The position numbers and the translations under genes are program-made. From Planctomycetota bacterium (GTDB taxonomy: Bacteria > Planctomycetota > Phycisphaerae > Phycisphaerales > SM1A02), in NCBI GenBank assembly GCA_022566725.1, contig JADFIM010000002.1:1-33893 (forward strand): a DNA stretch of 33,893 bases, written 5' to 3'. Positions 10,125-31,342 of this stretch are shown here, one piece after another. The notes beneath the pieces are model-generated. The model did no database searches. It was not told the DNA's origin and was given only the letters and a program-made list of their open reading frames with translations. The stretch's first letter is position 1. The number at the start of each line of letters is the position of its first letter.

Positions 10125-11396
10125 TCAGCCGCTGGTATCGACGGCTTCCGTCAGCGGCTGCGCTTGGGGTTTCGCCTCACCGTTGGGCAGGTGCGCCCCG
10201 GCGATCTTCGGGAAATACTCGCCCTTCCAGCTTTCCGGATATTCCTGATCGTCCAGCTCCAACGCCGCCTTGGTCGGATACAGTGGGCGGAAGGTATCGC
10301 ACATCACCGCCAGCTCGTTGGTCCACTGCTTGCCGAGCGACAGCTCAACGGTACCCGGATGTGGGCCGTGGGGGATGCCTTGGGGGTGCAGGGTGATCGA
10401 GCCGATTTCGATCCCCTTACGGGCCTTGTAGTTCCCGTCAACGTAGTACAGGACTTCGTCGGAGTCGATGTTGGAGTGGTTGTAGGGGATGGGAATCGCT
10501 TGGGGGTGCCAGTCGAGCGCGCGCGGGCAGAATGAGCAGATCACGAAGTTGTGTGCCTCGAACGTCTGGTGCGTCGGCGGCGGCATGTGATGCTTGCCCG
10601 TAATCGGACTGAAATCGTCGATGTTGAACCGGTACGGGTAGTAGCAGCCGTCCCAGCCGACCACGTCCAGCGGGTGATAGTCGTAGATGTAGCTGTGTAC
10701 GCGGTCGCGGGCCTTGATCCTCACCTCGAATTGGCCCGCTTCGTCGTACGTCAACGGAAGCTCAGGCGGGCGCAGATCGCGCTCGCAGTACGGGGCATGC
10801 TCCAGGAACTGGGCGGTCTTCTTCGACAGGTATCGCGGCGGGGGCAAGATATGCGAGCCGTTGGCCGTCTCGATCACCAGGAACTTTGGCTTCGGCTCGC
10901 CCTCGGCGGGCTTGTCGAACTCCATCTTGTACGTGGCGCCTTTGGGGATAATGATGTAGTCCTTGGGGCGAAAGTTCAGCGTGCCGAAGGAGCTGTACAC
11001 CGTGCCCGAGCCGTAATGGATGAAGACGCACTCGTCGCCCATACCGTTCTTGTAGTGGTAGTTCATCGCCTCGGCGGGTGCGCAGAGGCTCATTTCGCAA
11101 TCGGCGTTGCCGAACAGTACCACTCGCCCAGTGATCGGATCGCCTTTCGGCTTCATCGGCATCGTCTTGAGATGCCGCATCCGCATCGTGTCGGTCTCGA
11201 CGTACTCGGGCTTCGTCGAATAGAGCGTCTTCCAACCGGTGACCTGCGTCGGCGGATGGATGTGGTACAGCGTGGTGGTGGGCCCAACGAATCCCTCTGT
11301 GCCAAAGACCTCCTCGGAATACAACGCACCGTCGGGGCGACGAAACTGAATGTGCCGCTTGGGCGGCAATTGACCGAGCTTGAAGTAGTAGGGCAT
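10125..11396 (-). CDS. hmgA: Homogentisate 1,2-dioxygenase
   Basis: PYYFKLGQLPPKRHIQFR; DECVFIHYGSGTVYSSFGTLNFRPKDYIIIPKGATYKMEF; LHPQGIPHGPHPG metal-binding region. Confidence 0.9.
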   Translation of the reverse strand: MPYYFKLGQLPPKRHIQFRRPDGALYSEEVFGTEGFVGPTTTLYHIHPPTQVTGWKTLYSTKPEYVETDTMRMRHLKTMPMKPKGDPITGRVVLFGNADCEMSLCAPAEAMNYHYKNGMGDECVFIHYGSGTVYSSFGTLNFRPKDYIIIPKGATYKMEFDKPAEGEPKPKFLVIETANGSHILPPPRYLSKKTAQFLEHAPYCERDLRPPELPLTYDEAGQFEVRIKARDRVHSYIYDYHPLDVVGWDGCYYPYRFNIDDFSPITGKHHMPPPTHQTFEAHNFVICSFCPRALDWHPQAIPIPYNHSNIDSDEVLYYVDGNYKARKGIEIGSITLHPQGIPHGPHPGTVELSLGKQWTNELAVMCDTFRPLYPTKAALELDDQEYPESWKGEYFPKIAGAHLPNGEAKPQAQPLTEAVDTSG

Positions 11397-11505
11397 GGGG
11401 CTTGCTCCTCGGCAATCTGCTCGAATTCGACCCCTATTGTAGCGGGATCGTCTGCTGAGGACGGGTTGAGTTGAGCGAGCCGCGCCGTCCTCAGCCTCGG
11501 CCCGC

Positions 11506-12105
11506 CTATGAGGCGCGGAGGCGGGGAAGGAAGCGCCCGGTGCGGCTCATGTACGCGCGGTACTCATCGCCGAACTTCGCGATCAGATTCGCCTCTTCCC
11601 TGGAGGTTCGCGCCCGCAGCACAGCGAAGGCCAGCCCGCACATGAGCAATATGAACCAGTTGGCGGTGAGCAGAACATAGGCGGCGCACAGCACCACACC
11701 GGACGAGTACAGCGGATGCCGAACCCAGCGGTAAGGGCCGCCTGTCACCAGGGTGTGATGCGATCTCGTCCGCGCAGTACGAGTGACGTTGGCTCCAAGG
11801 TGTCGCAGCGTCCAAAACAACAGACCCAGCACGATCAGACCGAATAGTCCGCCGAGCAATCGCAGCTGCGGCACAAGTTCAAGCTGCGACCATGCCATCC
11901 ACTTGGGATTGATGAGATAGGTCACGACACTCGCCATTGCTCCGAAGCCAAACAGCGACAACAAGGTGTCAATCGCGAGTCCATTCTCGCGTGGCGAGAT
12001 GGGTCCGCCGGACTTGGCCCCTTTGCGGCGAAAGTAGATGCTTATGCCGGCGCCGCTGACGATGATCGCCAACAACACCCATCTGTACACGTTCTCATCG
12101 ATCAT
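11506..12105 (-). CDS. Isoprenylcysteine carboxyl methyltransferase (ICMT/PEMT) family protein
   Basis: LVTGGPYRWVRHPLYSSGVVL...EEANLIAKFGDEYRAYMSRTGRFLP is the ICMT-family C-terminal motif. Confidence 0.85.
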   Translation of the reverse strand: MIDENVYRWVLLAIIVSGAGISIYFRRKGAKSGGPISPRENGLAIDTLLSLFGFGAMASVVTYLINPKWMAWSQLELVPQLRLLGGLFGLIVLGLLFWTLRHLGANVTRTARTRSHHTLVTGGPYRWVRHPLYSSGVVLCAAYVLLTANWFILLMCGLAFAVLRARTSREEANLIAKFGDEYRAYMSRTGRFLPRLRAS

Positions 12106-12155
12106 GTGAGCTCATCCCGCACCGCATACTGTCGCGCGGTCATGCGTTTCGACGG

Positions 12156-12401
12156 TCATGCGGCCGTCTCGACGTATTCCGCCGTTGCCGATGGCTTGGG
12201 GATCGCCTGGCCGTCCTCTTTCATACCCTGCAGATGCAGTTCGATCGCCTCGGTGATACGCTTCCGCACAAGCGGTTGCGTCCGACCGGTTGCTACACAG
12301 CCGGGCAGATCAGGAACGTACGCAGAAAAGTTTCTATTCGCCTTTTCGATAACGACCGCGTACCGCAGTGAGTTCGCGCGCTTCGATTTCATCAACATCA
12401 T
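12156..12401 (-). CDS. HicB-family antitoxin-like protein (no HicA seen)
   Basis: RYAVVIEKANRNFSAYVPDLPGCVATGRTQPLVRKRITEAIELHLQGMKEDGQAIPKP. Confidence 0.88.
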   Translation of the reverse strand: MMLMKSKRANSLRYAVVIEKANRNFSAYVPDLPGCVATGRTQPLVRKRITEAIELHLQGMKEDGQAIPKPSATAEYVETAA

Positions 12402-12419
12402 TTACTCTGGGGGAGCTTT

Positions 12420-12513
<94 letters not shown>

Positions 12514-12747
12514 TCATCCGGCCTTGCCATCCTTCTCGTCGATTCGCCTGACGTGATAGTGCCCGTGTTCATCGGGGACCGATTCGTAGATCCAGCCCAT
12601 CTTCTCGGCAAAAGCGTCGGCTCGCTCGCGAATGTAAGCGTCCCGCTGTTCGGCGGTCATGCCCTTGGTCTCCCCCGCGACCCGGGCCTGAATCTGCCGC
12701 TTCATTTGAACACAGTCAAAGTCGTTCTTCGTCTTTGCCATAGACAA
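12514..12747 (-). CDS. Putative antitoxin partner of the PIN protein
   Basis: Small protein with FDCVQMKRQIQARVAGETKGMTAEQRDAYIRERADAF; start overlaps the 3' end of the PIN ORF; stop directly abuts the hppD repeat. Confidence 0.65.
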   Translation of the reverse strand: MSMAKTKNDFDCVQMKRQIQARVAGETKGMTAEQRDAYIRERADAFAEKMGWIYESVPDEHGHYHVRRIDEKDGKAG

Positions 12748-13201
12748 TCTCTGGGGGGGAGTGGATGCTCAGCGATCGGTAGTTCAGCCGCAGGTTGACG
12801 GCATTGAATCCACGTATCCTATCGTAGTTGACAATGTGCCGGAAGTTCCAACTGACCAACAGATCGGCATTATGGGCTGTCGCGATGGCCACATGAGTCG
12901 CATCATCAAACGATCCCGTCCCGAGGACTCCGGCATCGAGATAGGCTTGGCGCAGTTCGGCAACATCGGGCGTTATCGGGCAACGGATGATTCGATCGTC
13001 GGATAGGCTGGCAACGATCTCCTGAACGTGATCCGGCGCGAGTGCTAACTCCGCTTCGGTCGTCGCGCCCAGCAGCACGAGAAACCGTCCGGCGTTGACT
13101 CCCTCGAAGAATCGCTTGCTTGAATCCTGAAATCGTTCCTCGAAGCATCCGCCGAATACGGACGTATCGGCGTAAGCGCGGATCGGACGAGTAGAGGTCA
13201 C
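12716..13201 (-). CDS. PIN-domain toxin-like protein (GTG start)
   Basis: RAYADTSVFGGCFEERFQDSSKRFFEGV...SFDDATHVAIATAHNADLLVSWNFRHIVNYDRIRGFNAVN is typical of PIN. GTG start overlaps the hppD TGA. Confidence 0.85.
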   Translation of the reverse strand: MTSTRPIRAYADTSVFGGCFEERFQDSSKRFFEGVNAGRFLVLLGATTEAELALAPDHVQEIVASLSDDRIIRCPITPDVAELRQAYLDAGVLGTGSFDDATHVAIATAHNADLLVSWNFRHIVNYDRIRGFNAVNLRLNYRSLSIHSPPEIVYGKDEERL

Positions 13202-14394
13202 AGATTCCCTCGGCGGGCTTGTTCGAGCTCCAGCGACTCGAAGAGGGCCTTGAAGTTGCCTTTGCCGAAGCTCTGCGATCCGCGTCGGCAGATGATCTCG
13301 AAGAACAGCGTCGGGCGGTCCTGAAGCGGCTTGGTGAACAGTTGCAGCAGATACCCCTCGTCATCGGCGTCAACGAGGATGCCGAGGTCCCGGATGCGCT
13401 GGTGATCCTCCTTGATCTCCCATCCCATCTTGGACACGCGGTCCCAGACGGTCTGGTAGTACTCATCGGGGATGCGCAGAAAATCCACCCCCCGGCGGTG
13501 CAGCTCCGCCACGCTGGCCAGCTCATCATCGGTGCGGAAGGCCAGGTGCTGCACGCCCGGCTCATCATCGTGCCAGTCGAGGTACTCCTGAATCTGGCTC
13601 TTGCGTTTGCCGTGGGCCGGCTCGTTGATGGGCACCTTGATAGTGCCGAAACCTGAATCCATCACCTTGGACATCAGCGCCGAGTACTCCGTCGAGATGT
13701 CCTTGTCGTCGAAGTGCTTGAACTGCTTGAAGCCGAGCACATCTTCATACCACTTCACCCAATGGTTCATCTTCCCCAGCTCGACGTTGCCCACGCAGTG
13801 ATCGACGTACATCAGCCCACAGGGATGGGCCTGGTTGTACTCGTTGAGCGCAAATGACTCCACGGGCTCGAACCTGGGCATGAATGGGCCGCCGCCCTGA
13901 ATGTTCTCCAGTTTGTACCGGCCGTTGCGGGAGACGAAACTGTGGACACATCGGCCGAAGGTCTTGATCCCGGCGATGACGACCGTGCCGTCCCCGGAAT
14001 CGTCAGTCATCTCGACGGGTTCGTAGGCAGGTTCCCCGCCGTTCTTGATGGCCTGTTCGTAGGCGGCAGCCGCGTCGCGGACGGTGAAGGCGATGTCCTT
14101 GATCCCGTCGCCGTGGCGCATCACCTCGCGCTGGGCGGCGTGGTCTTTGTGCAACCCGGTGCTCAACACCAAACGAATGTTGCCCTGGGTGAGCAGGTAG
14201 CTGGCTTCCTCGCGGCAACCGGTGGTGAGGTCCGCAAGCTGCGCGACCTGGAAGCCGAAACAGTGCGCGTAGAAATACGCCGCTTGCTTGGCGTTGCCGA
14301 CGTAGAACCGCACGTGATCTACGTCGATCAGTCGCAGCGGATCGGTTTCTGGGGCGGTCTTGGGCCTTGACGACGGTGTGCTGGCGGTGGTCAT
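13198..14394 (-). CDS. hppD: 4-hydroxyphenylpyruvate dioxygenase
   Basis: Two VOC domains: LRLIDVDHVRFYVGNAKQAAYFYAHCFGFQ; YVDHCVGNVELGKMNHWVKWYEDVLGFKQF; GVQHLAFRTDD; LLQLFTKPLQDRPTLFFEIICRRG. Confidence 0.95.
   Translation of the reverse strand: MTTASTPSSRPKTAPETDPLRLIDVDHVRFYVGNAKQAAYFYAHCFGFQVAQLADLTTGCREEASYLLTQGNIRLVLSTGLHKDHAAQREVMRHGDGIKDIAFTVRDAAAAYEQAIKNGGEPAYEPVEMTDDSGDGTVVIAGIKTFGRCVHSFVSRNGRYKLENIQGGGPFMPRFEPVESFALNEYNQAHPCGLMYVDHCVGNVELGKMNHWVKWYEDVLGFKQFKHFDDKDISTEYSALMSKVMDSGFGTIKVPINEPAHGKRKSQIQEYLDWHDDEPGVQHLAFRTDDELASVAELHRRGVDFLRIPDEYYQTVWDRVSKMGWEIKEDHQRIRDLGILVDADDEGYLLQLFTKPLQDRPTLFFEIICRRGSQSFGKGNFKALFESLELEQARRGNL
13200..13293 (-). repeat. hppD 3' end, direct repeat copy 1
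   Basis: Same 94-nt unit as 12420-12513, offset exactly 780 nt. Confidence 0.97.
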
Positions 14395-14671
14395 GGGAGT
14401 CGATCTCCTGGATCTGGGGCGGTCGCCCGCCATTTGCGGCGATGGCACAACACGCTTGGCGTATGATATGGGCCGCCACCGGCTCGGGGCATGACCATGG
14501 GCCCTGTTGGCCTAATTGCAGCGGGGCCAGGTCTGAACCCGCCTCGGCTCTGGCGAATCATGGCCAGTCGGGCGGCGGTAGGGACGTGTCCGAGCGACTT
14601 GACCGGCGGGCCTGAACGGCCGGGGGGAGTTAGGGTACACTGCTTGACCATTTTAGAGAAAGGATAATGTC

Positions 14672-16258
14672 ATGGGTGTAGTCATTGTCGTCGGGCTGGG
14701 ATTGGCTATCGCGATTGTTGTGGCAGCGGTGAAATATCCCGCCGCGAGCCCCCGTGCCACCGCCAGCCTCCGTGCCGGAGCGGGGGTGGTGGCGTTGTTC
14801 GTATTGGCTGTGTCGGTCGTGATGAGCTCGGTTCGGTACGTCGGCGAAGATTTCGCGGGGATCGTCATCAAGAACATCGCCGTCAAGGACCTTCCCCAGG
14901 GGCAGATCATCGCCACCCAGGGCGAGAAAGGGCCTCAAGCCAAGATCCTCGGTCCCGGCTGGAAGTTCGGCTACTGGCCGGTCATCTACGACATCGAGAA
15001 AGACCGCGTGATCGAAATCAAGGAAGGCCAAGTCGGCCTCATGACGACGACGGACGGACGGCCGCTGCCGCTGGGTGAGATCTACGCCCCGGAATGGTCG
15101 CAGGAGGAGTTCCAAAAGATGCTCGGTGCCGAGTATTTTCTCGGGCCCGCCCAGGGATACAAAGGACCGCAGGCATCCGTGCTCACACCCGGCAAGTACC
15201 GGCTGAACACCCGGCTGTTCCATGTCGAGATTGTCCCGGTGACGAACATCGAAAAGGCGACGGTCGGCGTGGTCAAGGCCAACGTCGGCGAGAAGGCACC
15301 CGCGACAACGGACATGGCCATCGTCGACCGCGGGCAACGAGGCATCTGGCGCCAGCCACTAATGCCAGATAAATACTATCTGAACACGAAGGCGTTGCAG
15401 ATGACGATTGTCTCCACCGAAGCGCAGGTCATGCGATACACCAAGGCCGCGCAGGCCGGCGAGGAGCGGGAGATCACGGTCCGCTCCTCAGACGGTTTCA
15501 CCTTCCCGGTCGATGTCCGCGTGGAGTACGAGATCACACCCGACGACGCGGCGATCGTCGTTGCGAGGTTCGGTGGCGACTGGGAACGGATGCAGAATCG
15601 CTTGAACTCCGCGGTTCGGGCGATCTTCCGCAACAACGCCGAGGGCGTCAAGGCCCTGGACTACGTGCAGCAGCGATCGCTGCAGGAGTCACAGTCGCTG
15701 CTGCTGCTGGCCGCGGAAATGTCGAAGGTCGGCGTGACCGTGACCGCAGTCCGCATCGGCGACGTTGGCGATGAGCAGACGCTTGGCGCGCTGTTGAAGA
15801 CCCAGACCGATCGTGAAATCGCACTTCAGGAGCAGGTCACCTTCCAGGAGCAGCAGCGGGCGGCGGAGCAGCAAAAGGCGTTGTCCCGAACCCAGCAGGA
15901 AGCGGAGGAAGAACGGCGTTTGGCGACCGCGATGTATGAAGTCCAGATCGCCGAGCAGGACAAAGAGCGCCGCATCATCGAAGCGGGCGCCGAAGCCGAG
16001 GCGATCCGGATCAAGGCCGAGGCACAGGCCGAGGCCTATCGCGTCATTGCCCTGCAGATCGGCTCGGGCAACGCGGCGCTGCTCGAACTGCTCAAGATCG
16101 TCGGCGAGCGCGGCATCAACATCACCCCCCGCGTCATGGTCGTCGGCTCGAATGGTGGAAATGTCGGCACAGGGGGATCAACCGAAGCCACGGCTCTCAT
16201 CGGCACTATGCTCGACACCATGATCAGCCGCCAGGAGCCATCCGCCAAGCCTCAGTAG
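14672..16258 (+). CDS. SPFH/Band 7 (flotillin-like) domain protein
   Basis: N-terminal TM segments; SPFH-like EREITVRSSDGFTFPVDVRVEYEITPDDA; long Glu/Gln/Ala-rich coiled coil; GITITPR-like C-terminus. Confidence 0.85.
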   Translation: MGVVIVVGLGLAIAIVVAAVKYPAASPRATASLRAGAGVVALFVLAVSVVMSSVRYVGEDFAGIVIKNIAVKDLPQGQIIATQGEKGPQAKILGPGWKFGYWPVIYDIEKDRVIEIKEGQVGLMTTTDGRPLPLGEIYAPEWSQEEFQKMLGAEYFLGPAQGYKGPQASVLTPGKYRLNTRLFHVEIVPVTNIEKATVGVVKANVGEKAPATTDMAIVDRGQRGIWRQPLMPDKYYLNTKALQMTIVSTEAQVMRYTKAAQAGEEREITVRSSDGFTFPVDVRVEYEITPDDAAIVVARFGGDWERMQNRLNSAVRAIFRNNAEGVKALDYVQQRSLQESQSLLLLAAEMSKVGVTVTAVRIGDVGDEQTLGALLKTQTDREIALQEQVTFQEQQRAAEQQKALSRTQQEAEEERRLATAMYEVQIAEQDKERRIIEAGAEAEAIRIKAEAQAEAYRVIALQIGSGNAALLELLKIVGERGINITPRVMVVGSNGGNVGTGGSTEATALIGTMLDTMISRQEPSAKPQ

Positions 16259-26866: not shown

Positions 26867-28486
26867 CTACCTTCTTCTTTTTCTCTCGGTCACGATCAGG
26901 TTGCATGTGCCGACGGCGACGTCGCCCAGCCGAAAGCCAACGATGGTGACGTTGTCGGTGACGCGAAACACCAACCGCAACTCCTGCTCGCCGGTGGTCG
27001 GAAGATGGGGCAGATCGTCCGCTGACGCGATGCCCCGAACGGGGTCCAGGAAGATTCTGACGCCCTCGGGGTTCACGTGGATAAAGCCAATGGGTGAGTA
27101 TTGGTGGCCTTGACTGTCGATCAGGACGGGCCGAGCCTTGGCGCCGGCCCGTTCCCGCAGGGGTCCGAAGATGTCTGCGGACCTTCCCCGGCTGACGTTG
27201 AACTGGACGATTCTCGTGCCGCCAGGCTCGTCGATGCCCTTGATCCGCAACTCTCGCGAGACGCGGGCTCTGCCCGTCTTGAACAGGGCGTCACCGCTGA
27301 CCAGGTACTTGTTCGATTCCTTTATTGTGCCCGGAAGCTGGTTGCTGCTGACGACCACCCGGCGGATGGAGTTGGAAAGGGTGATGTCAGCGTCATCAAT
27401 CGGGCGGGCCCCGGCCAAATCCGTCAGCAGCCCGACCGTTGGGGAAGTTCCACCCATGCCGCTGAGAACTGCCTCGTACTCCAGCCGCGTCCGCTCCTCG
27501 GCTTGAGGAAGGTCGTATCGCGTCCCCTTGATCTGAATGAAGCGCGGCTCCAGTTCGGCGGGAAACGGAAACACGATCAGCACGTCGGCGTCTTCGCGCC
27601 CGGGCACGCTCCTGATGTAATGCGATAGGTCGTCGAAGAGAAAGGTTCCCATTCCCACGCCCTTGATTTCCTGCGTCCAGCTCACCGGGAACGATATGTA
27701 GGGCTTGTCTTTCCCTTGCGGCCATGCGATCAAGCGCAGCTGGGCAGCGGAGATCGTCAACTGCTCGCCGAAATCCATGGCACCCCGTCCGAACTTCACG
27801 CGGACCGCGCATCGTCCCAGATCGGAACAGACATACACTGCATCAACCGAGGCCGCAGACGGGAGCAGCGAAACCTGCCCGCGCCCGCCACGATAGGAAT
27901 CTCGTATGAGCGAAACCGCCTGATCCGACAGGTTGGGGTAGTAGTGCCGAAGCGGCCGGGGGGTGCTCAGCGAGCCCACGCTCAGCTGGCTGTAAAACTC
28001 GTCGGTCCACTTGTGGAACGGCAGCCACATTCTCGACCCGACGTTACCGACCTGGCCGGTCCTCGCGCTGCGGGCCGACCCGACATGTCCAAAGATCTCG
28101 CGCTCCGATTGAATGAACCCCATGCCGATGATCAGCATTCCAATTGTTAGCACGCCCGACGCCGCGCCGACCGGGAAGCCGAAGCTGAGATTGGCCCAGT
28201 GTGGCAGGTCAACGTTGGCGGGAATGAGCTTGTTGGTGGCCAATCGCAGCAGAAGCAGCGCCGCTACGAACAGACCAACCAGGCTGACGCCCCAGGCATA
28301 GTTATCGAATGCGTTGCCGTGCAGCAGGAGGCCGACCGTCAGCGGCTCCCAGAAGGCCAGCGCGATCGCGCCGGCAACAATCACGCACAGCAAATGAATG
28401 ATCGCGCTGAACAAGCCTTGATTGGCCCACCAGTACGCGATCATCGCAACCAGCGCGATAAGGACAATGTTGAGGGCGTAGATCAT
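26867..28486 (-). CDS. CvpA-like N-terminal membrane domain plus large extramembrane domain, hypothetical
   Basis: Four hydrophobic segments in the N-terminal ~150 aa in CvpA-like arrangement; ~390 aa C-terminal region of unrecognised family. Confidence 0.6.
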   Translation of the reverse strand: MIYALNIVLIALVAMIAYWWANQGLFSAIIHLLCVIVAGAIALAFWEPLTVGLLLHGNAFDNYAWGVSLVGLFVAALLLLRLATNKLIPANVDLPHWANLSFGFPVGAASGVLTIGMLIIGMGFIQSEREIFGHVGSARSARTGQVGNVGSRMWLPFHKWTDEFYSQLSVGSLSTPRPLRHYYPNLSDQAVSLIRDSYRGGRGQVSLLPSAASVDAVYVCSDLGRCAVRVKFGRGAMDFGEQLTISAAQLRLIAWPQGKDKPYISFPVSWTQEIKGVGMGTFLFDDLSHYIRSVPGREDADVLIVFPFPAELEPRFIQIKGTRYDLPQAEERTRLEYEAVLSGMGGTSPTVGLLTDLAGARPIDDADITLSNSIRRVVVSSNQLPGTIKESNKYLVSGDALFKTGRARVSRELRIKGIDEPGGTRIVQFNVSRGRSADIFGPLRERAGAKARPVLIDSQGHQYSPIGFIHVNPEGVRIFLDPVRGIASADDLPHLPTTGEQELRLVFRVTDNVTIVGFRLGDVAVGTCNLIVTERKRRR

Positions 28487-28564: not shown

Positions 28565-30259
28565 CTACGTGGTCGGCGCGGGATCCGGTTTCGGACGCCG
28601 TGCGGTCTCCGCGCCGCTTTGGGCGGGAGCCGTGACTCGAATAACCTCCTCGATGCTTGATTCACCGTTGACAACCTTGCTCAGCGCCGCTTCCTGCAGG
28701 TAGATCATCTTGTTGCGGCGGGCGTAGGCCAACGCGCCCTTGAGGTCGCCGGCCACCAGAAGCCGGCGGGCTTCGTCGTCGATCATCATCACCTCAAACG
28801 CGCCGGTCTGACCGAGATAACCGGTGCCTCCACACACCGGGCAGCTCTCAATCTTGTTCTTGACCTGAACCTTGCCATTGGCCCGGTACAGCTGGCTGAC
28901 TTTTTTCGCCGGAAGGTTCATCCTCTGGAGCTGTTCGGGTGTAGGCTGATAGGGGTGGCGGCAATTCGGGCAGAGCGTGCGCACGAGCCGCTGATTCGTC
29001 ACGGCACGAAGCGTCCGCGCCGCCATCTTCAGATCGCCGACATATTTGACCCACTGGCGTATTTGCTCGGAGATCGCTTTGGCCCGCTGTGGGATATAGA
29101 TCAGCGGCCCCTGCAAACCGGGCGCCGCCGCGATTCTCGCGGTTTCATTGTCGGCCAGTGTAGCGAGCAGCACCACGTCGGGGTCTCGGCGGAGGATGGA
29201 CTGAAGGTTCGTGGCGTAATCCACATCGGGATTGTTCGGGTCCCATTGGGCCTGATCAACGCCGTCAATCAACGCCTGGATTTCACGCTCCAGCGTCTTG
29301 ATGTTGGAGGTGTAGGGGTCGTGCCTGGACATGAAGCTATACGAGGAGGTGGATAGCCCATGTCCGGGCGGAGCCCCAAGAAGGAGGACGCCGTGGCGCT
29401 CATGCGACGGTTCGAGCGCTCGCAGCGCCGCCAGTTGCGACCGCAGTAGCCCGAGCCCGTCAAACGGCTTGAGCAGTCGTTTGCTACGGTCGAAGTCGAG
29501 TTTCATCACCTGGCCGCTCGATGTGCCGGCGGTGATCAGTGTAATCTGCACTTCGCCGTCGGGGGCGAGCATTCGAAACTCCGCCGTCTGCCGTCTTCGG
29601 CGGTCATCGACGTTCAGCGCGGCAATCTCCTTGAGGTACGCGATCAGATGCGCTGCCGATTCAGGCTGCAGCGGTTCGCGCTTGTATCGAATGCCGTCGA
29701 TGGTCTGCGCGACCCTGCCGCCGCCTGCGCCGACGGTGAGTTCGATCTGAGTTGCCCGAGCGGCGACCGCCGGCGCGATCAGGTCCTCCGCCAGGATGTG
29801 GATCGGATACAAAGGATCGTCTTTGGGCGGGACATTGCGTTCGTTGCCCTTTGGGTCAATGAATCGCAGCATCGCGCCGCGGGCGCTGCGGGCGAGCTTG
29901 CGGGCTTCGAGTCTGGCAGCAAGTCCCTCGCCGCTGAGCTTGAATCGCTCGGTTTCGGGGACTTCACGGTTTCGAATCTGCCAGTAGGCGTAGAGGGGGG
30001 CGGCGAGGATGATCATGCCCAGGGGCCAGCTGAGCCAGAACGTCGGCGGAATGAAGAGCATCGCCGCCAGCGCGGCCACGCCCGCAGCCAGATGAATGCC
30101 GTTCCACATCTGATGATTGAGGTGGTAGAAGCGGGCATCCTTGTCAAGCTTCGACGAGATCAGCCATGCCCACGGCACAAACGGCGCGAACATCAGCAGC
30201 GGCTTGTAGAAGCTCACCAATTGAGCGGAGACGTTCGCGAACAATATCTGCACGGTCAT
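28565..30259 (-). CDS. Membrane-anchored GspE/PilB-like ATPase homologue with degenerate Walker motifs
   Basis: N-terminal TM segments; GspE-like core LRRDPDVVLLATLADNETARIAA, tetracysteine CPNC...CPVCGGTGYLGQTGAFEVM; Walker A reads GAPPGHGLSTSSYS. Confidence 0.85.
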   Translation of the reverse strand: MTVQILFANVSAQLVSFYKPLLMFAPFVPWAWLISSKLDKDARFYHLNHQMWNGIHLAAGVAALAAMLFIPPTFWLSWPLGMIILAAPLYAYWQIRNREVPETERFKLSGEGLAARLEARKLARSARGAMLRFIDPKGNERNVPPKDDPLYPIHILAEDLIAPAVAARATQIELTVGAGGGRVAQTIDGIRYKREPLQPESAAHLIAYLKEIAALNVDDRRRRQTAEFRMLAPDGEVQITLITAGTSSGQVMKLDFDRSKRLLKPFDGLGLLRSQLAALRALEPSHERHGVLLLGAPPGHGLSTSSYSFMSRHDPYTSNIKTLEREIQALIDGVDQAQWDPNNPDVDYATNLQSILRRDPDVVLLATLADNETARIAAAPGLQGPLIYIPQRAKAISEQIRQWVKYVGDLKMAARTLRAVTNQRLVRTLCPNCRHPYQPTPEQLQRMNLPAKKVSQLYRANGKVQVKNKIESCPVCGGTGYLGQTGAFEVMMIDDEARRLLVAGDLKGALAYARRNKMIYLQEAALSKVVNGESSIEEVIRVTAPAQSGAETARRPKPDPAPTT

Positions 30260-30280
30260 CTGATTGCGGCTCGTGGGGAA

Positions 30281-31342
30281 TCAGGAGATGCCCTTGAGGC
30301 GCATCTTGAGTTCTTCGGGCTTTGGCGTCGCTTCCATCGCGACGCGGTGATGAATCCATTCAGCTTCGACGAGCTCCACCAGCGCGCTGGTGAAGTCGAT
30401 CATGCCTTCTTCCCGGCCTTGGCGGATGATGTCCAGCAACTCGCCCTCTCGGCCGTCAAGGATGTACTTCTGCACCGGCGGCGTGTTGATGAGGATTTCA
30501 ATCGCGGGTATCCGGTGGATGTCGTCTCGCAACGTCGGCAGAAGTCGCTGGTAGATGATTGCTCGAAGGTTGTACGCCAGCAGCTTGCGGATCTGGTCGC
30601 GCTCGGGCTCCGGGAACATGTCGAAGATGCGCCCGAACGCCTGCCAGGACGACGAGGCGTGGATCGTCCCGAAGACCACATGGCCGGTCTCCGCGGCGCG
30701 GATCGCCGCCTCGAACGTCTCGTAGTCACGCATCTCGCCCACCAACACCACATCCGGGTCCTCTCGCACCAGCGTTCGAAGCGCCTCGTTGAAATCAATG
30801 CAGTCGATGCCGACCTCGCGCTGATTGATCGTCGCCTTGTCGTCTTTGAAGATGTATTCGATCGGATCCTCGATGGTGACGATATGGACCCGCCTGCGTT
30901 CGTTGATGTACTGCAGCATGGATGCGATCGACGTCGATTTGCCGGACCCGGTGATGCCCGCGAAGAGAATCAGCCCCTGGGCGCTCAGGGCCAGATCTCC
31001 CAGCGATTGCGGCAAGCGAAGGTCCTCGAAGGTCTTGATATTCGACGTGATCAACCGGGCCGCCAATGAAGGTTTGCCCCGAGCCATGAACAGGTTGATC
31101 CGGAAGCGATCGTCCTCGTCATAGTCGTACGCGAAATCGACCGAGCCGTGGTGATGGAAATACGCGTACTGCTTTTCATCCAGCACGTCCTTGGCGATCT
31201 GGAACATCAACTGCTCCGAACACTCCTCGGTTTGCAGGTTCTTCAACGCGCCGCGGAGCCTGATCCGCGGAGGCAGATCGACTTTCACGATCAGGTCGGA
31301 TGCCTCGTAGCGCACAGCCGCTGCGAGATATTTCATCAGCAT
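30281..31342 (-). CDS. PilT-like twitching/secretion ATPase with canonical motifs
   Basis: FAGITGSGKSTSIASMLQYIN; TIEDPIEYIF; REDPDVVLVGEMRDYETFEAAIRAAETGHVVFGTIHASS. Start set at MLMKYLAAAVRYEASDL rather than 31648. Confidence 0.9.
   Translation of the reverse strand: MLMKYLAAAVRYEASDLIVKVDLPPRIRLRGALKNLQTEECSEQLMFQIAKDVLDEKQYAYFHHHGSVDFAYDYDEDDRFRINLFMARGKPSLAARLITSNIKTFEDLRLPQSLGDLALSAQGLILFAGITGSGKSTSIASMLQYINERRRVHIVTIEDPIEYIFKDDKATINQREVGIDCIDFNEALRTLVREDPDVVLVGEMRDYETFEAAIRAAETGHVVFGTIHASSSWQAFGRIFDMFPEPERDQIRKLLAYNLRAIIYQRLLPTLRDDIHRIPAIEILINTPPVQKYILDGREGELLDIIRQGREEGMIDFTSALVELVEAEWIHHRVAMEATPKPEELKMRLKGIS

Follow-up and report, generated by a model that had tools for sequence, protein, structure and literature searches.

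The described systems closest to the locus analyzed here belong to type IV pili, type II secretion and the CvpA family of membrane proteins. In V. cholerae, PilT K136A still supports PilU-driven retraction and a pilT deletion does not, so that one of two related motor-family proteins can act as an ATPase-dead coupler (PMC6821130); PilU has been proposed to sit beneath PilT (PMC6762196). The function of PilT requires its catalytic glutamate and HIS box (PMC6858323), and in PilB the ASP-box glutamate is a Mg ligand (PMC5424180). The CvpA protein of E. coli, encoded upstream of purF, is required for deoxycholate resistance, and the deoxycholate sensitivity linked to CvpA in EHEC and vibrios provides an envelope-related hint (PMC6705877). 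The planctomycete locus resembles the PilT/PilU pair in joining two related motor-family proteins. As opposed to that pair, however, the apparently inactive partner is here natural, class-wide, GspE-type and membrane-anchored, and a CvpA-family protein takes the place of PilC. In the open-access literature searched, we found neither a description of such a module nor any natural, lineage-fixed pseudoenzyme of the PilT/GspE motor family.

The window, by which we mean the whole 33,893-nucleotide stretch of DNA under analysis, derives from a draft genome of 2.56 Mb that is 82% complete. On its minus strand lie three consecutive genes encoding a PilT/PilU-family ATPase (30281..31342), a membrane-anchored pseudo-GspE of 564 aa, here termed psE (28565..30259), and a CvpA/Colicin_V-family membrane protein of 539 residues (26867..28486), the last of which is absent from the first-pass annotation of this DNA. 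The three genes are separated by ~21 and ~78 bases, without a terminator-like site in between on the minus strand; counts of promoter and terminator patterns equal those of shuffled sequence, and these patterns thus add nothing. From inspection of the sequence, we take the divergent gene upstream of the trio to be guaB and the gene facing it downstream to be accC. Elsewhere in the window, positions 14672-16258 encode an SPFH/Band 7-domain protein of 528 aa that has no NCBIfam match, and the minus strand carries an HgmA-like gene (10125-11396) and an HPPD/glyoxalase-like gene (13198-14448), suggesting a homogentisate pathway cluster at 10125-14448.

The upstream gene had been read as a canonical PilT-like ATPase, and profile searches bear this out, its product scoring 396 bits against TIGR01420 (cut-off 319). 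The catalytic motifs of this candidate motor are all intact, including Walker A GITGSGKST (residues 129-137; 30932..30958, minus strand) and the catalytic glutamate E203 of VLVGEMRD (30734..30736, minus strand), and DPDVVLVGEMRD is likewise present. Across 15 orthologues, no variation is seen in Walker A, the Walker B glutamate or the HIS box. In place of the C-terminal AIRNLIRE motif, which is missing from PilU too (PMC6762196), the module PilT has VQKYILDG; a PilC-linked PilT of the same genome carries AVRNIIRE, a near form of the motif.

For psE, the GspE-like fold proposed by the first-pass annotation is corroborated by a Pfam T2SSE match of 116 bits, starting at residue 152, and by the match of the family profile to EpsE structures (E ~7e-78). 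Homology to GspE covers the N2 and ATPase domains, and psE shares with GspE/EpsE the N2 plus C-terminal domain fold and the tetracysteine metal site, formed by C430, C433, C473 and C476 (28832..28972, minus strand). Against TIGR02533, the GspE equivalog, psE reaches 184.6 bits where the cut-off is 630, a threshold also missed by those active GspE-type proteins of planctomycetes that were scored (406 and 445 bits), so that the cut-off alone is not decisive. What sets psE apart is that it lacks the GspE catalytic set (Walker A lysine, Walker B glutamate, arginine fingers and HIS box) as well as the soluble N1 domain that docks to GspL/PilM, for which a hydrophobic anchor has been swapped, and that no gsp genes lie nearby. 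Hence, we regard psE as homologous to GspE and do not file it as GspE. Its AlphaFold model, built on a five-sequence alignment, is poor (mean pLDDT 47).

To follow the fate of the active site, we aligned 126 pseudo copies with 15 anchored relatives whose motifs are intact and with 13 canonical entries, of which two are duplicates. As already noted from the window, and confirmed here residue by residue, psE has a Walker A of the form GAPPGHGLST, with the lysine replaced by Leu302 (29354..29356, minus strand), and a Walker B region, DPDVVLLATLADNETA, in which the glutamate is replaced by Thr367 (29159..29161, minus strand). The Walker A lysine is found in 15/15 anchored active and 13/13 canonical proteins and in none of the 126 pseudo copies, which hold ten different kinds of residue at that position; its absence from every aligned family member indicates that the loss is not a product of chance or sequencing error. 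An alternative catalytic lysine was sought in the psE alignment and none is invariant, the only near-invariant lysines being Lys19 and Lys40, both within the anchor region. The two arginine-finger positions, which we assigned ourselves by spacing and alignment to EpsE, hold arginine in 17/126 and 20/126 pseudo copies and in all anchored active and canonical proteins. Glutamate occupies the Walker B position in 28 of the 126 pseudo copies and aspartate in 41, and both HIS-box histidines have mostly been lost. On the other hand, the ASP-box Glu324 (29288..29290, minus strand), a P-loop glycine and Arg427 are kept in 126/126 copies, the next Ser/Thr of the P-loop in 123/126 and the tetracysteine in 122/126, and Arg221 is also conserved. 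Fold and some site geometry have thus been held, and the chemistry has not. Taken together, the alignments strongly support the prediction that psE is a pseudo-ATPase, dead for ATP hydrolysis.

The persisting residues might also suit a sensor that binds nucleotide or metal without hydrolysis through the P-loop Gly/Thr and the ASP-box glutamate, and the invariance in psE of a residue that serves PilB as Mg ligand makes some ligand role possible. As a sensor, psE is nevertheless very unlikely, given that the first P-loop glycine, the lysine and both arginine fingers vary freely. Broken catalytic motifs could also point to a pseudogene in decay or to an error of assembly, a reading to which we attach practically no probability. 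An orthologue of psE occurs in 60 of the 61 near genomes searched (the exception being G060), and a class-wide sample of 198 Phycisphaerae genomes yields full-length matches at E <1e-90 in 187, with copies, mostly cut by contig ends, in six of the other 11 (~193/198). This conservation, the retained tetracysteine and a dN/dS of 0.14-0.23 among four close genomes (few, very similar sequences) rule out decay.

The N-terminal transmembrane segments reported for psE correspond to a hydrophobic anchor at residues ~17-97 (29969..30211, minus strand; hydropathy), which occupies the place of GspE N1 and probably comprises three hydrophobic helices. According to hydropathy, each psE family member read has one to several strong hydrophobic segments within its first ~140 residues, and the canonical GspE of locus L129 has no N-terminal hydrophobic segment. 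Conservation of this anchor and class-wide catalytic erosion lend good support to the earlier description of psE as non-hydrolyzing and membrane-docked, at least as far as sequence analysis can predict it.

Anchored proteins are also encoded in other planctomycete families (denoted by f-codes, with L-numbers for loci). Families f49 and f56 combine the anchored architecture with all catalytic residues (15/15 relatives aligned), and f70 and f73 hold anchored copies with intact Walker motifs. In a tree of the ATPase domain from which the catalytic columns had been removed, the Phycisphaerae pseudo copies form a single clade (SH-aLRT 100), joined by the active f49 copies (98) and separated from canonical GspE (88). 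Since the anchored relatives of other families are catalytically complete, the anchor is probably older than the catalytic loss, and the simplest history is probably one in which the anchor came first and was followed by one catalytic loss at the base of Phycisphaerae. A lone copy outside this class, L157 (f99), has also lost the Walker A lysine and kept the ASP-box aspartate; its branch is long and unplaced, and a second, independent catalytic loss is possible there.

Is this, then, part of an ordinary pilus or secretion system? The lack of PilC or secretin genes nearby, pointed out in the first-pass annotation, holds for the entire contig, and pairing of the two ATPases inside ordinary T4P/T2SS operons, which that annotation had named as grounds for rejecting its proposal, is not what the loci display: PilC/GspF lies near only one of ~143 (L084, beside a second PilT), which indicates that the trio is not an ordinary T4P/T2SS operon. 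As a positive control, the same PilC/GspF profile detects the genome's own pilus loci. In the source genome, 14 hits to the GspE/PilT family, seven proteins of GspF type and three above-cut-off secretin matches were counted, all of them on other contigs except the two window ATPases; canonical systems thus exist and are separate. One GspF/PilC-type gene of this genome resides on a short contig without a GspE/PilT-family hit (G000:C55, L218). The many canonical GspE, PilT and PilC genes elsewhere in the genome, together with the conservation of Arg221, Arg427 and similar residues, would be in line with psE acting as a negative or spatial regulator of ordinary type IV pili, which controls retraction by capturing PilT or by poisoning GspE/PilB rings through mixed assembly. 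We consider this improbable. It leaves unexplained both the linkage to CvpA and the full catalytic sets of the anchored relatives in other families, and psE has lost both of the arginine fingers, which are needed across subunit interfaces. A defense-system reading was rejected, as PADLOC gave no relevant hit.

The third gene matches PF02674 marginally in the window (29.4 bits, cut-off 29.3), and the same profile is matched by 14/14 aligned CvpA-like members. Its product shares with CvpA a four-helix membrane domain, with four predicted transmembrane helices, followed by a ~400-residue C-terminal domain that is probably periplasmic. Phycisphaerae versions differ from CvpA in that most carry this large extra domain and stand beside motor ATPases. 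No Pfam match to the C-terminal domain was obtained in the 14 members, nor any convincing PDB match, and the AlphaFold model (four-sequence alignment) is poor, with a mean pLDDT of 33.

Gene order is kept on one strand as PilT-psE-CvpA in all 55 loci first examined, which belong to the window's order (Phycisphaerales, a part of the class Phycisphaerae), and in 100/141 loci overall. A CvpA-family gene lies downstream of the anchored GspE in 135/141 loci; of the remaining six, three end with their contig and three belong to f49. Among the pseudo loci, it follows psE in 123/123 where the contig continues. The psE-CvpA link is thereby a strong one. PilT is adjacent in 106/141 loci, including 100/126 pseudo loci, and several genomes have the PilT orthologue elsewhere, away from psE. 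Among active anchored proteins, those of f56 and f70 occur with PilT and CvpA, and that of f73 with a Colicin_V-like protein. Linked PilT and linked CvpA are mutually exclusive in the f49 genomes read, where PilT without CvpA appears at three loci (L151, L158 and L219) and CvpA without PilT at nine. No conserved neighbors were found beyond the trio and the flanking genes vary, identifying the trio as the unit; no fusions of its genes were seen in the loci read.

The first-pass annotation had cast psE as a partner of PilT, and the evidence divides on this point: adjacency in 100 of the 126 pseudo loci upholds it, whereas the constant neighbor is CvpA, and f11 seems to dispense with the PilT orthologue. 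In that family, 8/8 genomes tested hold no PilT scoring like the module orthologue (330-352 bits at best, versus ~450-680) and retain psE and CvpA. Such observations, and the far greater constancy with which CvpA follows psE than PilT precedes it, would fit a psE that serves CvpA chiefly as scaffold or gate, with PilT as a frequent and optional companion and any motor of the cell, be it another PilT or an active GspE, able to engage it. A candidate of the latter kind is seen at two f8 loci (L129 and L233), where an active GspE bearing an FHA domain at its N-terminus (L129:5716-7605) lies directly upstream of psE and, where the locus shows it, after PilT, an arrangement that suggests phosphothreonine-dependent regulation of the f8 module. 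At two further f8 loci, a similar unknown ORF of ~630 aa upstream of psE replaces PilT (L137:9124-11013 and L188:260-2149). A scaffold with interchangeable motors is conceivable and, in our judgment, unlikely. It sits poorly with the presence of PilT beside psE at every locus examined in the window's order, and with PilT being the slowest-evolving of the three proteins (mean column identity 65% against 45% and 37% for the other two; dN/dS in the same four close genomes 0.03-0.13, compared to 0.32-0.45 for the CvpA-like protein).

The precedent of PilT K136A and PilU, in which an ATP-dead ring can act as a needed coupler, leads us instead to favor an inner-membrane PilT-psE-CvpA module with PilT as the motor, psE as a fixed dock and CvpA as the part that is moved or gated, a proposal that we hold to have an even prospect of being correct. 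Under this model, the anchor of psE would hold a ring at the membrane, a task that falls to N1 in GspE or PilB, thereby providing a membrane-fixed docking ring on which PilT, the sole intact ATPase of the trio, would stack or which it would join. ATP hydrolysis by PilT would supply the mechanical cycle, and psE would relay the movement to the CvpA-family protein, which would stand where PilC/GspF does in pilus machines and in this way drive or gate an envelope process. We infer ring formation, the PilT-psE contact and the transfer of force to CvpA, and with them the coupling of PilT and the output of the module. The main reservation against PilT as the motor comes from the genomes with psE and CvpA and no evident PilT orthologue, to which the 26 of 126 pseudo loci with a non-adjacent PilT must be added. 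More tentatively, and with some doubt, one may envisage an envelope machine that works without pilins or PilC and is ancestral to parts of Planctomycetota. In it, a membrane-anchored GspE and PilT would act on a CvpA-family protein in place of PilC; in Phycisphaerae, its GspE arm would have lost catalysis and turned into an immobile coupling ring, so that PilT alone remained as motor.

The locus described here looks like a conserved and undescribed motor module, and through psE it presents a pseudoenzyme of the motor family that is nearly universal in one bacterial class. The intact anchored relatives found elsewhere in the phylum offer a before-and-after comparison of the role that these rings play beyond the burning of ATP. 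More generally, the operon connects CvpA proteins, a family that is poorly understood, with a motor, and this would give CvpA a testable function.
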